Shown piece by piece: positions 11,780 through 16,528 of a DNA stretch of 37,147 nt. The stretch's first letter is position 1. Each line of letters begins with the position of its first letter. The notes under the pieces are model-generated. The model did not search any database and was not told where the DNA came from. It saw nothing but the letters and a program-made list of their open reading frames with translations. The DNA lies in NCBI GenBank assembly GCA_026390495.1, contig JAPLFV010000240.1:1-37147 (forward strand). The letters are read 5' to 3'. This DNA comes from Pseudomonadota bacterium (lineage in GTDB: Bacteria > Bdellovibrionota_B > Oligoflexia > Oligoflexales > RGVZ01). Position numbers and translations under genes: made by a program.

Positions 11780-14700
11780 TCAAATATGTGCAAAAACCTG
11801 AATTCTATTGATGCCTCCATCTGGATATGTTCTGACTCGGATCACATCTGTTTTAGGTAGATTTTGAAATAGGAACTCCTGCTTGTTGCCAGCATATGGC
11901 TTGGATAGAGATTTAGGGCAGATCTCCATCCAGGTGTCATTGTTGTTCACAAAAAATGTGAAATCAAACAAGATTCTTCCAATTGAAATCGATTCGCAAA
12001 GTTTGATTTCAACTTCTTCGAAATGGCCCGGAATTCGGCTGCGCGATGATTCCAATCCATCAAACATATGCAAAGGTGGATATGGAGAAATAACTTGTGA
12101 GGCAGGACTATAGTGCTCATTGGAAGCTCTCAATATGCTGGCACCCCACAGAGATGATGCATAATTCAAGCTTTTGCCCAAGAGACCTAGTTTTTGTTTG
12201 TCGCGATTCGTAGTAGGAATGGTCAGCGGTTTTTTTGTCTTTGGAATTAGATCTTCGCAACGCTTGGATTTTGCATTATCTCTGGGCTGAAACATGGCAG
12301 CTTCATCACGTGAAAGTGTTTCGTAAAGTCCAAGTCTTGTGATTCCACCATCTGGAATACCTTCAACTCTAATCTTTTGAAACGCTTGGGTGGATGAGCC
12401 TAAATCGATCCACATTTCAGAATGTGCATCTATCGATGTCTTGGGTAAAAACTCGGTCCACTTTTGCTCATTAACGTTACATCCAAGAAGCCGAATGCCG
12501 GGAGTGTGATTGCCGTCATGAAATTTTGTCGACAAATAAATATAGCGAATCGATGAGGGGGCCTTCATCTCTAGGTGAAGCCAATCAAGGCCTTGTGGGT
12601 TATGGCGGACAGTTTCCCAGCTATCCATGATTTTACCTTGTTTTCCGAACAGAGTCGGGTCGAAACATGGCTCGAAGGGGCTGATAAGGTTTTCAGCGCG
12701 TGCAAATTTTTGATCATTGCATCCCAAAATCGAGGCATTTTGGAGTAAGTCCTTTTTTACAAGTGGACGCATCTTCGAACTTGGTACAATTTTTTCAGGA
12801 AGCATCGGTTCAAAGGCATCAAAAATCCACTCTTTGTACCCTTGATTGACAATATTTTCCTGCGAGACTGAATTTAAATTCATGCGCGCGCTATGAAGTG
12901 ATTCATACTTTGCAAAATCGATTCCTGAAAATTCTAAACCCTTGAGTAGGCTTTGGGCGATCTCAGATATTAGCAAAACGGCCTTGTTATCGGAGTTTGA
13001 TAGAATCACAAAACCTTTACCCGCATCGGGACCATGGAATGCATAAATGTAGAGTGCTCTAAAACCGTCGTTCGCACCTTGGTGAACCATGACGCGATTT
13101 TCTCCGGCATCAAGGACAAACACTCCAAGACCCATGCGCGCACCCATAAAATCAACGCTGCCTAAGTCGTTACTGGCAAGCATATGGCGCGCCGTATCGT
13201 GGCTGACAATCCTAGGGACATTGTTTGGCGGATCGAGAGAATTTTCATTATGACCTAATATTGAGTCGCCAAAAGTATTGATGCTATCGAGGTCCTGGTA
13301 GGCTGCTCCGATACTTTGTAAAAAACCAAGCATAGATTCAGCATTGGACCAACCACCTGCTGCACAGGAGGGGAAATTGAGAAAAGGATGATTCAAGGCG
13401 ATGTCTCGGGCAATAAAATTGCCAGCATTTGGACTTAGGAAAAGATGTTTGAGTCTTTTATGGTCTAGAAACTGTTTTGATAGATCCGCACTAGATTTGC
13501 CGGTGAGCTTTTCCAATAAATGTTCGAGGACAATAAATCCTCCTCCAGAATAGCGAAACTCTTTTCCTGGATTGATATTTACCTTTATTGCTTCATATCC
13601 GTATGCCTCTGGATTTGATAGTAGTTGGTCAGAAGTCGGTAGAGGTTGATCTGGGGAAAAGCCATTGACGTAGTGCATGTTAAGACCAGTGTGACTTAGT
13701 AAATCGCGAAGAGTGAGTTGATTGCACACACTAGATTCATTTGAAGGAGACGTAGACTTTGTGTTGTCGACTGACAACTTAAAAGTCGATCCACAGCGTT
13801 TTAAAACATCCACAACTTTTTCGTTGATAGAAATTTTATGGTCTCTAAAAATCTCCATGGCTAACGCCGATGCAATTGTTTTACTTAACGACGCAATCTG
13901 AAAGAGTGTCGTCTGTTGAATTGCAACTCCTGGTTTGCTCTCGCCAAAGCAAAAGGTTTGGATAGGACCCTGATTAGATCCGACGACCGCTACCTGTAAA
14001 CCCATGCAGTCATGGCGCTTAAAAATGTTTTCCAATAGGGAAGGTGTTTGATCTTTTGGCGCTATGGACAAGCGCTTTAGGGTTATCTCCCAAAGTGCAT
14101 TTTTGGCAGCCAAGAATTCTTGTTCATAGGTGTTGTTGAGTCGATTTTGTAATGCTTGAAGTAAGTCGTCTGCAGATTTACCAGCCGCAGATATAAGAAA
14201 TTTAAACCCGAATTTTTCTTTATACTCTTTTCCTAGTTTTTGCAGTTGATGCAAAACGTCGTTTCTTCCTGATTGGGCCAAAGATTGTTCTTGGCGTGCC
14301 GTGTGGTCAAGAGTGCTTTTTGTCTCGCCAATATCGCCGTGAAAACTTGCTGCTTCATTGACTTGATCCAACGTAAAATCAAAAATTAATTTTTTAGCAA
14401 GACCGATATCTTGAAATCGTCTATCTGCCATTGACTGACTAAAAAACAAACTGCCACAGGTTTCAAAATAGTGATTGAGTCGATCGACCTTAGAATCCAA
14501 TTTAAAATGGTCTGCCGCTATTTTTGTAGCTTGATCCCAAGGATTTTTTGCATCTCTAATCTCTGAAACAGTGAATGGCATCAAAAGCTCGGTTGCGAAC
14601 TCAGGAGGGTGCGGATCTGTCATCAACTTAAGCATCAGCTTAAATGCGACAGGATACCATTTTTCAGTTTGTTCATTCCATTTGATCTGAACAATTTTGG

Positions 14701-16528
14701 TGGCGTTAGATAGATCTTTGCGGATGAATCGCATCTCTTCGTGCGCAATCTTAATAAACTCCGCAAGCGAAAATCGTTGGTGACGAATCTCGTGCCAGAC
14801 TTCCCACCGAGATCGTTCCGCAGTTGCTAGGTCATCCATGACGCGAACAGGAATGCCGTCCACAATTGTCGGCAAAGCAACACAGCCATTTCCTGAAAGC
14901 CAATCTGTTAGGTATTGAAGTGATTGAAAAACATTGTACCTAATCTCATCGGGATGATGATTTGGGATAAAATCAGATTCCTTTATATCAGCTACGATGA
15001 GTTTTCTGACATAGTTTGGATCATTCTTATTGAGTCCTTCGATGTCAGGACTGTCAATAAACTTTAGAAGCTCTGATTGGTAGTCAGGTAAAAAGATCTC
15101 ACTAATTAATACTCGAAGTGATTCCTTTTGCCCTGACTGATACTGCTTCCAGGATTCAACAATGGCGAGCCCAAGGCGAACAAAATCAGGATGAGCGACC
15201 CAAAAACCTGTGAGATGTCGTTTTAACTGCGTAATAACGTCTTTGAAATACCCTCTCAAGGTGATTTGAAATGATGGGGATTTTATATCATTGTCGCGCG
15301 GTAAGAGGCCATACATCCCACCAACTTTGACGCCACCTCTAGAACCAACAACATCAGCAAGTAAGGAGTGTGAAGCCTTGATATACTTGATCACAATATT
15401 AGGATCTGCTTTGACAGGAATGCGGTAGTTGCCATCCTCCTTGAATAATCGCGCCGTGGATCCGAGGTAGTCGTGCCAACCTAAGGATGCGCCCATAAAA
15501 TAAGGATCTAACTCATCAATGATTTCGTGTGTTCTTAAAATGGCTCGGGGGTTTTCAAGGACGATCATTAATCGAATGGTGCCGATTTGATAGCTAGTAT
15601 CAAAAGCTTGAATCATTCTCTCTGCTGTATCCATTAAGATTTTGATGTAGCGAGCTTCTTCTTCGTTTTCAAGTTTTGGGACATAAAACACGAGCGCTTT
15701 TGGGTTTTTGTAGTTGACGAAAAGGTGTAATGCAAAATCATATAAATGAAGCGGAATCGGACAATTTTCGTAAAACAAAAACGAGCAGGGTAAAGCGAGT
15801 CCAGGAAAGCGCTTAATGGGATGGGAGAGAAAATCTCGGGCAAGTTTATACTTTTCTGAGCCATCTTCTGTCCCACTGGAAATATTGATGGAACCATCTA
15901 AGCAAGCCGTTAAATTCTTAGCGGCTTCCTGAAGATCAATTCGCAAAGGCGTTTTAGAATCTTCATCATCAGCTCCCCACGTGGGGTGAGTGATATTTGA
16001 CGATAAGAGTTGTTCTACTATTTTCGGCTCCCCAGCAAGCTTTCGATGATAGGCGTTCATAGCGTTGATCGACATCTTTGCAGAGTCAGGTGGGCCAAAA
16101 AGTGTGACGTGAGGCCCTTCGAGAAACTTTGGAATAGGTTTGATTTTTTTGCCGCCTGGCTTGCAGTAAAGTGCTCCCAAGGGTCCAAAAACAACCCGAC
16201 CATCAGCATCTTCTAGGCCTAAGATTGTCTGATAGGTTTTTTGATCTATAGAAATGCCGTGTTCCTTGTTGAACTGGTAAAAAGCCTTCACTCTAGTATC
16301 GATAAATGTTCGATCTTCAACTCTTTGATTCAAAACTTTCTCGAGCGGCTGCTTCACTTTTAGATAAAGATCTACCAAAAAACGGAAGGATGCAGTTGAC
16401 TCGAGTCCACCGCCTGGCCCCACGTCGACAAGTCCATTGACGCCATTTACTGGTTTCGCCTTAAGTAGCAAATGGTCGCGCAATGACTTTGGGATATAGG
16501 CTTCATAAAACAGGGGTGATGATTTCAT
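11780..16528 (-). CDS. Four-domain fusion: malate-synthase-like + OHCU decarboxylase + beta-lactamase-fold serine hydrolase + allantoicase
   Basis: aa ~30-655 malate synthase-like (GPPDSAKMSINAMNAY; VFYVPKLENEEEARYI; IRLMIVLENPRAILRTHEIIDEL; GASLGWHDYLGS; WVAHPDFV; GNGCVALPTIVDGIPVRVMDDLATAERSRWEVWHEIRH). aa ~660-825 OHCU decarboxylase (FETCGSLFFSQSMADRRF; SFHGDIGE; ARQEQSLA; YKEKFGFKFLISAAGKSADDLLQALQNRLNNTYEQEF). aa ~828-1195 serine hydrolase (SxxK in FQIASLSKT; RYSGGG; VHQG). aa ~1260-1582 allantoicase (FARAENLI; KIMDSWETVRHNPQGLDWLHLEM; IPDGGITRLGLYE; RVRTYPDGGINRIQVF). Confidence 0.9.
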   Translation of the reverse strand: MKSSPLFYEAYIPKSLRDHLLLKAKPVNGVNGLVDVGPGGGLESTASFRFLVDLYLKVKQPLEKVLNQRVEDRTFIDTRVKAFYQFNKEHGISIDQKTYQTILGLEDADGRVVFGPLGALYCKPGGKKIKPIPKFLEGPHVTLFGPPDSAKMSINAMNAYHRKLAGEPKIVEQLLSSNITHPTWGADDEDSKTPLRIDLQEAAKNLTACLDGSINISSGTEDGSEKYKLARDFLSHPIKRFPGLALPCSFLFYENCPIPLHLYDFALHLFVNYKNPKALVFYVPKLENEEEARYIKILMDTAERMIQAFDTSYQIGTIRLMIVLENPRAILRTHEIIDELDPYFMGASLGWHDYLGSTARLFKEDGNYRIPVKADPNIVIKYIKASHSLLADVVGSRGGVKVGGMYGLLPRDNDIKSPSFQITLRGYFKDVITQLKRHLTGFWVAHPDFVRLGLAIVESWKQYQSGQKESLRVLISEIFLPDYQSELLKFIDSPDIEGLNKNDPNYVRKLIVADIKESDFIPNHHPDEIRYNVFQSLQYLTDWLSGNGCVALPTIVDGIPVRVMDDLATAERSRWEVWHEIRHQRFSLAEFIKIAHEEMRFIRKDLSNATKIVQIKWNEQTEKWYPVAFKLMLKLMTDPHPPEFATELLMPFTVSEIRDAKNPWDQATKIAADHFKLDSKVDRLNHYFETCGSLFFSQSMADRRFQDIGLAKKLIFDFTLDQVNEAASFHGDIGETKSTLDHTARQEQSLAQSGRNDVLHQLQKLGKEYKEKFGFKFLISAAGKSADDLLQALQNRLNNTYEQEFLAAKNALWEITLKRLSIAPKDQTPSLLENIFKRHDCMGLQVAVVGSNQGPIQTFCFGESKPGVAIQQTTLFQIASLSKTIASALAMEIFRDHKISINEKVVDVLKRCGSTFKLSVDNTKSTSPSNESSVCNQLTLRDLLSHTGLNMHYVNGFSPDQPLPTSDQLLSNPEAYGYEAIKVNINPGKEFRYSGGGFIVLEHLLEKLTGKSSADLSKQFLDHKRLKHLFLSPNAGNFIARDIALNHPFLNFPSCAAGGWSNAESMLGFLQSIGAAYQDLDSINTFGDSILGHNENSLDPPNNVPRIVSHDTARHMLASNDLGSVDFMGARMGLGVFVLDAGENRVMVHQGANDGFRALYIYAFHGPDAGKGFVILSNSDNKAVLLISEIAQSLLKGLEFSGIDFAKYESLHSARMNLNSVSQENIVNQGYKEWIFDAFEPMLPEKIVPSSKMRPLVKKDLLQNASILGCNDQKFARAENLISPFEPCFDPTLFGKQGKIMDSWETVRHNPQGLDWLHLEMKAPSSIRYIYLSTKFHDGNHTPGIRLLGCNVNEQKWTEFLPKTSIDAHSEMWIDLGSSTQAFQKIRVEGIPDGGITRLGLYETLSRDEAAMFQPRDNAKSKRCEDLIPKTKKPLTIPTTNRDKQKLGLLGKSLNYASSLWGASILRASNEHYSPASQVISPYPPLHMFDGLESSRSRIPGHFEEVEIKLCESISIGRILFDFTFFVNNNDTWMEICPKSLSKPYAGNKQEFLFQNLPKTDVIRVRTYPDGGINRIQVFAHI

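Follow-up and report, generated by a model that had tools for sequence, protein, structure and literature searches.

A beta-lactamase-fold serine hydrolase embedded in a purine-degradation fusion protein is a candidate allantoinase

Introduction

What opens the hydantoin ring of allantoin in bacteria that carry the enzymes acting before and after this step and no recognisable allantoinase? The question is raised by a window of 37,147 nucleotides (the whole stretch of DNA that was analysed, a contig of an Oligoflexia genome), in which a serine hydrolase domain of the beta-lactamase fold (Bla in what follows) is placed between UraD and allantoicase; domains and reactions follow the same order. 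The explanation that best accommodates the evidence is that Bla is a serine allantoinase of the beta-lactamase/DD-peptidase fold, not homologous to the known enzymes. This is considered likely (probability roughly 0.68); assignment to EC 3.5.2.5, the conversion of allantoin into allantoate, is a genomic inference without activity data.

The four-domain protein

The domain architecture is directly shown. The parts of the open reading frame (ORF), all on the minus strand, are:

11780-16528, minus: 1582-aa four-domain ORF, malate synthase - UraD - beta-lactamase-fold serine hydrolase - allantoicase (ORF and Pfam, full-length orthologues)
14564-16528, minus: malate synthase part, aa 1-655 (aa 243-647 covered by the Pfam TIM-barrel and C-terminal domains)
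14063-14461, minus: UraD (OHCU decarboxylase) part, aa 690-822 (Pfam OHCU_decarbox, orthologue alignment)
12944-14047, minus: serine hydrolase domain Bla, beta-lactamase fold, aa 828-1195 (Pfam, AF2 model, alignments); candidate allantoinase
11789-12757, minus: allantoicase part, aa 1258-1580, two allantoicase repeats (Pfam and structure match)

The malate synthase part (Pfam MS_TIM-barrel and MS_C) matches E. coli malate synthase A among solved structures (3cuz, E 1.3e-22). The UraD part is matched over aa 711-820 by OHCU_decarbox (PF09349, E 1.5e-20, 74.7 bits against a cut-off of 24) and passes the test of UraD membership, which combines the profile match with retention of H730 and E747. 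In the segment of aa 730-747 (14288-14341, minus) it reads HGDIG where solved UraD has HPRIG, and all seven aligned orthologues have Ala in place of the Ser three residues ahead of the catalytic Glu. The allantoicase part is matched from aa 1265 (PF03561, E 7.3e-40, 136.7 bits against a cut-off of 27), meeting the two-repeat test, and resembles yeast allantoicase (1sg3, E 2.3e-25); its score is below the NCBIfam equivalog cut-off (139.8 versus 277.9).

A first-pass annotation, made without database searches, had placed a serine hydrolase at 12944-14047, between UraD and allantoicase, with motifs at S880LSK, Y993 and H1149. All of this held: the interval is exactly aa 828-1195 and the motifs are at those residues. 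The malate synthase with which the same ORF starts had not been listed.

Fold and active site of the Bla domain

Bla matches the beta-lactamase family PF00144 over aa 834-1182 (Pfam, E 1.4e-20, 74.2 bits against a gathering cut-off of 27) and satisfies the catalytic-motif test of that family (SxxK, Y-S-G or Y-x-N, H/K-x-G). Its AF2 model (pLDDT 89.7, pTM 0.91) also meets the PF00144 fold test, and a Foldseek search with this model retrieves DD-peptidase R61 (E 1.3e-15). The closest solved folds are those of DD-peptidase R61, esterase IS11, D-stereospecific hydrolases, a PBP-type cyclase and D-amino-acid amidase, at 12-20% identity. These nearest folds act on amides or esters by way of an acyl-serine, which is in keeping, by analogy, with a serine allantoinase. 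An antibiotic-hydrolysing (true class C) beta-lactamase was ruled out, the score being 28.9 bits against the NCBIfam class C cut-off of 415. Neither of the allantoinase profiles, AllB (TIGR03178, amidohydrolase fold) and PuuE (TIGR03212, polysaccharide-deacetylase fold), has a match in the fusion protein.

The active-site features, all on the minus strand, are:

13880-13891, minus: SxxK motif, S880 (nucleophile) and K883; invariant among fusions
13670-13693, minus: H946..H952-Y953, belonging to the LNMHYV stretch of fused domains; substrate-pocket residues are proposed (inference)
13544-13552, minus: Y993-S-G motif (catalytic base); invariant among fusions
13058-13084, minus: H1149-Q-G-A-N1153-D-G-F-R1157, the third motif of the fold; HQG, N1153 and R1157 invariant among fusions

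Conservation of these residues is likewise shown. S880-L-S-K883, Y993-S-G and H1149-Q-G are invariant in an alignment of seven full-length orthologues, and S880, K883, Y993, H1149, Q1150, G1151, H952, Y953, N1153 and R1157 are identical in 76 of 76 Bla domains (those of four-domain proteins that are legible across the entire catalytic region). Because of this invariance in both sets, the motifs are not attributable to chance. The LNMHYV stretch and the extended motif HQGAN[DE]GFR are retained throughout the fused group.

Spread of the fusion and selection on Bla

Seven complete four-domain copies are found among the 65 genomes of the window's phylum, the other six being 48-56% identical to the window's. 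When 85,000 species genomes are searched with the Bla domain alone, 79 loci are returned; nearly all of the complete ones encode this four-domain architecture in a protein of about 1400-1700 aa, and the remainder are contig-edge fragments or broken frames. The dozens of carriers belong to Oligoflexia, Bacteriovoracaceae/Bdellovibrionales and Planctomycetota, together with two gammaproteobacterial metagenome-assembled genomes (MAGs). No viral homologues were found; the plasmid matches are serine hydrolases with 22-30% identity, and the one inspected sits among hypothetical proteins.

Bla is under purifying selection: its dN/dS in close pairs is 0.02-0.21, a range similar to those of UraD and allantoicase. 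The four domains diverge in step, with correlations of pairwise identity of 0.86-0.89. Four fusions (L113:5559-10169, L075:2-4063, L079:5501-10151 and L136:5514-10152) are interrupted by an in-frame stop or a frameshift in the Bla or UraD part; these might be MAG errors or genes in decay.

The gene context, also shown, is recurrent: the usual neighbours of the fusion gene are the PuuD urate oxidase, UraH and XdhABC (xanthine dehydrogenase). Fusion and neighbours together make up a full route from xanthine to malate, lacking only an allantoinase and a ureidoglycolate lyase.

It could be argued that Bla has a general peptidase, amidase or esterase function, was fused by accident and has no part in the pathway. 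In favour of this, the family of the fold is both large and promiscuous, DD-peptidases, an esterase and D-amino-acid amidases supply the nearest solved folds, and a free-standing relative in Asticcacaulis also has the motif HxGANEGFR, that is, part of HQGAN[DE]GFR. Against this stand the retention of the fusion across several phyla, the invariant active site, the low dN/dS, the co-diverging domains and the exclusion with allantoinase that is described below. Moreover, Bla lies inside a chain of what are inferred to be cytosolic enzymes, not in a cell-wall setting. This explanation is regarded as very unlikely.

Absence of known allantoinases from fusion genomes

No canonical allantoinase scores above the TIGR03178 cut-off in any of the seven fusion genomes of the window's phylum, in 49 fusion genomes of several lineages (wide scan) or in 48 fusion-type genomes of a second class. 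(The number of fusion-type genomes checked for AllB in this way, without one above cut-off, is about 78, being 7 + 49 + 22 further ones.) The ten AllB-profile matches that were classified, either the best-scoring or own-genus ones, comprise nine dihydroorotases and one dihydropyrimidinase. A PuuE-type allantoinase was ruled out, none of 56 fusion genomes tested having one above the TIGR03212 cut-off. A canonical allantoinase elsewhere in the window genome was also ruled out in this assembly, in which the sole strong match (G000:C187) is a dihydroorotase; the assembly is 92% complete and in 431 contigs, which qualifies the finding. The clearest individual example is G001 (97% complete, 8 contigs), which has the fusion, UraH and PuuD without an allantoinase.

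The second class holds 132 genomes, 60 of them with allantoicase. Among the nine that have only an unfused canonical allantoicase, eight carry AllB, compared with none of the 48 fusion-type genomes (Fisher p 5e-9, ignoring kinship). The fusion and the known allantoinases are thus mutually exclusive across the genomes examined. Several qualifications apply. The absence rests on profile searches of genomes, most of which are MAGs, and fragmentary ones may miss a gene by accident; the 48 were assigned by score and ORF, some being merely contig-edge fragments; and the counts are not corrected for kinship and may reflect few independent events.

The inert alternative, in which Bla has a structural or regulatory role and allantoin is opened by a moonlighting dihydroorotase or dihydropyrimidinase, bears directly on these searches. 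Both are close relatives of allantoinases and are present in the genomes. On the other hand, retention of the catalytic tetrad in 76 of 76 domains would not be expected of an inert domain. In the three classified fusion genomes of the window's phylum the closest match is a dihydroorotase, an enzyme that pyrimidine synthesis itself requires, and in G002 and G028 no full-length relative was found. Little likelihood is therefore given to this alternative.

The first-pass annotation had offered Bla as a substitute for allantoinase or for a ureidoglycolate enzyme, had recognised no separate allantoinase, had held that the idea would be refuted if all genomes with the fusion had a canonical allantoinase as well, and had proposed searching the complete genome for allB, allA/uraH and uricase genes. 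The absence held and extends genome-wide, within the limits of the assembly, and the opposite of the refuting pattern is seen (0/7, 0/49, 0/48). Another contig of the window genome (C160) carries UraH together with a PuuD-type urate oxidase. PF01014 uricase is absent from the window's phylum, where PuuD does the urate oxidation, and no AllA-type ureidoglycolate lyase (PF04115) is above cut-off in that phylum's fusion genomes. The substitute idea is supported by the genomics, because fusion genomes lack AllB and relatives without the fusion have it at the corresponding place; the first of its two options is favoured, with activity only inferred.

Unfused operons of relatives

In 10 of 11 relatives without the fusion a canonical allantoinase is present in an unfused operon. 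Clusters of PuuD/AllB/Alc/UraD/UraH/DUF6986 occur in G008, G038, G195, G226 and G232, although for some of these PuuD was not seen in the stretch examined. In G008, which belongs to the family of the window genome, and in G038 there is no fusion, and AllB, Alc, UraD, UraH and DUF6986 are neighbours, with PuuD adjoining in G008. Fused and unfused loci differ in having the Bla domain versus AllB.

The exception (G256) has, on C155, an unfused PuuD/Alc/UraD/UraH/DUF6986 cluster (L242) that lacks both AllB and Bla. This might signify an incomplete MAG or yet another allantoinase and, because of this case, a missing AllB elsewhere may also be due to the incompleteness of MAGs or to an unidentified enzyme.

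Proteins of the DUF6986 family (PF22484) take the place of malate synthase in the unfused operons (L054:8091-9470, L055:12486-13907, L242:4917-6245, L243:11704-13056, L244:4250-5563 and L245:4-1347). They have weak similarity to the malate synthase TIM barrel where this was tested, and are conceivably glyoxylate-using, malate-synthase-like enzymes.

Bla-Alc proteins with an altered active site

Three related genomes (G263, G264 and G265) encode a separate two-domain protein, Bla-Alc:

L236:4743-7034: two-domain Bla-Alc protein, altered Bla active site
L239:8472-10853: two-domain Bla-Alc protein, altered Bla active site
L234:2-1642: two-domain Bla-Alc protein, altered Bla active site (partial copy, in G263)

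In G264 and G265 the catalytic Tyr of Bla is replaced by Phe and HQG by HHA; in the partial G263 copy HHA is the only change visible. This is the sole group that departs from the invariant Bla active site, and it holds canonical enzymes. An AllB-UraD fusion accompanied by UraH occurs in G263 and G264 (truncated by a contig end in the latter), and a canonical allantoicase is encoded in G264 and G265. No AllB was detected in G265, where an AllA-type ureidoglycolate lyase adjoins the inactive-looking Bla-Alc (L239). The AllB-UraD fusions, which join adjacent pathway steps, are at L235:6874-8727 (618 aa) and L238:2-1270 (cut by the contig start). Small ORFs of 166-180 aa with a single allantoicase repeat (L234:3071-3568 and L236:8384-8923) are found near Bla-Alc and a separate malate synthase.

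As a natural control this is one small clade. It is inferred that Bla catalysis is dispensable in the group; the step that has been replaced is not thereby identified.

Allantoin or ureidoglycolate?

The main rival explanation holds that Bla acts one step later, as a serine hydrolase or lyase that yields glyoxylate from ureidoglycolate, and that something else opens allantoin. In its favour, the absence of AllA-type lyase from the fusion genomes of the window's phylum is a second gap that Bla could fill (the PF04115 search covered that phylum only and included no other ureidoglycolate enzyme families); the Bla-Alc pair also occurs without UraD or malate synthase; and the proximity of AllA to the inactive-looking Bla-Alc of G265 fits this reading as well. 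Against it, the opener of allantoin would be left unidentified in about 78 genomes, and ureidoglycolate breaks down spontaneously to glyoxylate and urea (PMC3793230). The gap is also not special to the fusion: allantoinase is favoured over the ureidoglycolate step because the unfused operons of relatives, with allantoinase present, also have no recognisable ureidoglycolate lyase nearby. The rival is judged unlikely.

Proposed reaction sequence

Beta-lactamases of this fold open a cyclic amide through a serine nucleophile. For a Bla allantoinase, its activity, substrate, acyl-enzyme mechanism, order of intermediates and any channelling are inferred from sequence alone. The UraD domain would make (S)-allantoin for Bla, where the attack on the carbonyl of the cyclic amide (hydantoin) would come from S880, with K883 and Y993 as its activators. 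The ring would open as an acyl-enzyme on S880, from which water would free allantoate, to be passed to the allantoicase domain that follows. The resulting ureidoglycolate would give glyoxylate, spontaneously or through another enzyme, and the N-terminal malate synthase would join glyoxylate with acetyl-CoA. Four of the steps that lead from the UraH product to malate would in this way be carried out by one cytosolic polypeptide.

Significance and comparison with known systems

If the allantoinase reading is correct, a missing step of purine degradation is filled in many bacteria, predatory-type lineages among them, whose genomes seem stuck at allantoin; the fold, known from antibiotics and cell walls, acquires a new reaction; and allantoinase has been invented independently a third time, after the metal amidohydrolase and PuuE. 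The bolder formulation, that this is a third unrelated allantoinase and the first serine, beta-lactamase-fold opener of a hydantoin, working within a four-enzyme polypeptide that leads from OHCU to malate in several phyla, is advanced with less assurance, the balance of evidence tipping modestly in its favour. No description of such a fusion or of a serine allantoinase was found in the open-licence papers searched. The case is also a caution that the annotation 'beta-lactamase' may conceal central metabolism.

AllB (TIGR03178) catalyses the reaction proposed for Bla at the same place in the pathway, and its gene neighbourhood in relatives without the fusion is similar. AllB is a binuclear-metal amidohydrolase (PMC9863593), whereas Bla has an unrelated fold, carries the motif of a serine nucleophile and is not related to it in sequence. 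PuuE (TIGR03212; polysaccharide-deacetylase/NodB fold; Ramazzina et al. 2008, cited in PMC6983136 and PMC10967932) shows by precedent that an allantoinase can be non-homologous, independent of metal and recruited from a different fold, although its own fold and chemistry differ from those of Bla. The PF00144 serine hydrolases (class C beta-lactamases, DD-peptidase R61, D-amino-acid amidase and IS11 esterase) share with Bla the fold and the SxxK, YSG and HxG motifs; unlike them, Bla is embedded in a purine-degradation chain and has the LNMHYV stretch and HQGAN[DE]GFR. Finally, the unfused PuuD/AllB/Alc/UraD/UraH/DUF6986 operon of relatives shares its pathway steps with the fusion and differs in having separate genes, a metal allantoinase, and DUF6986 in place of malate synthase.
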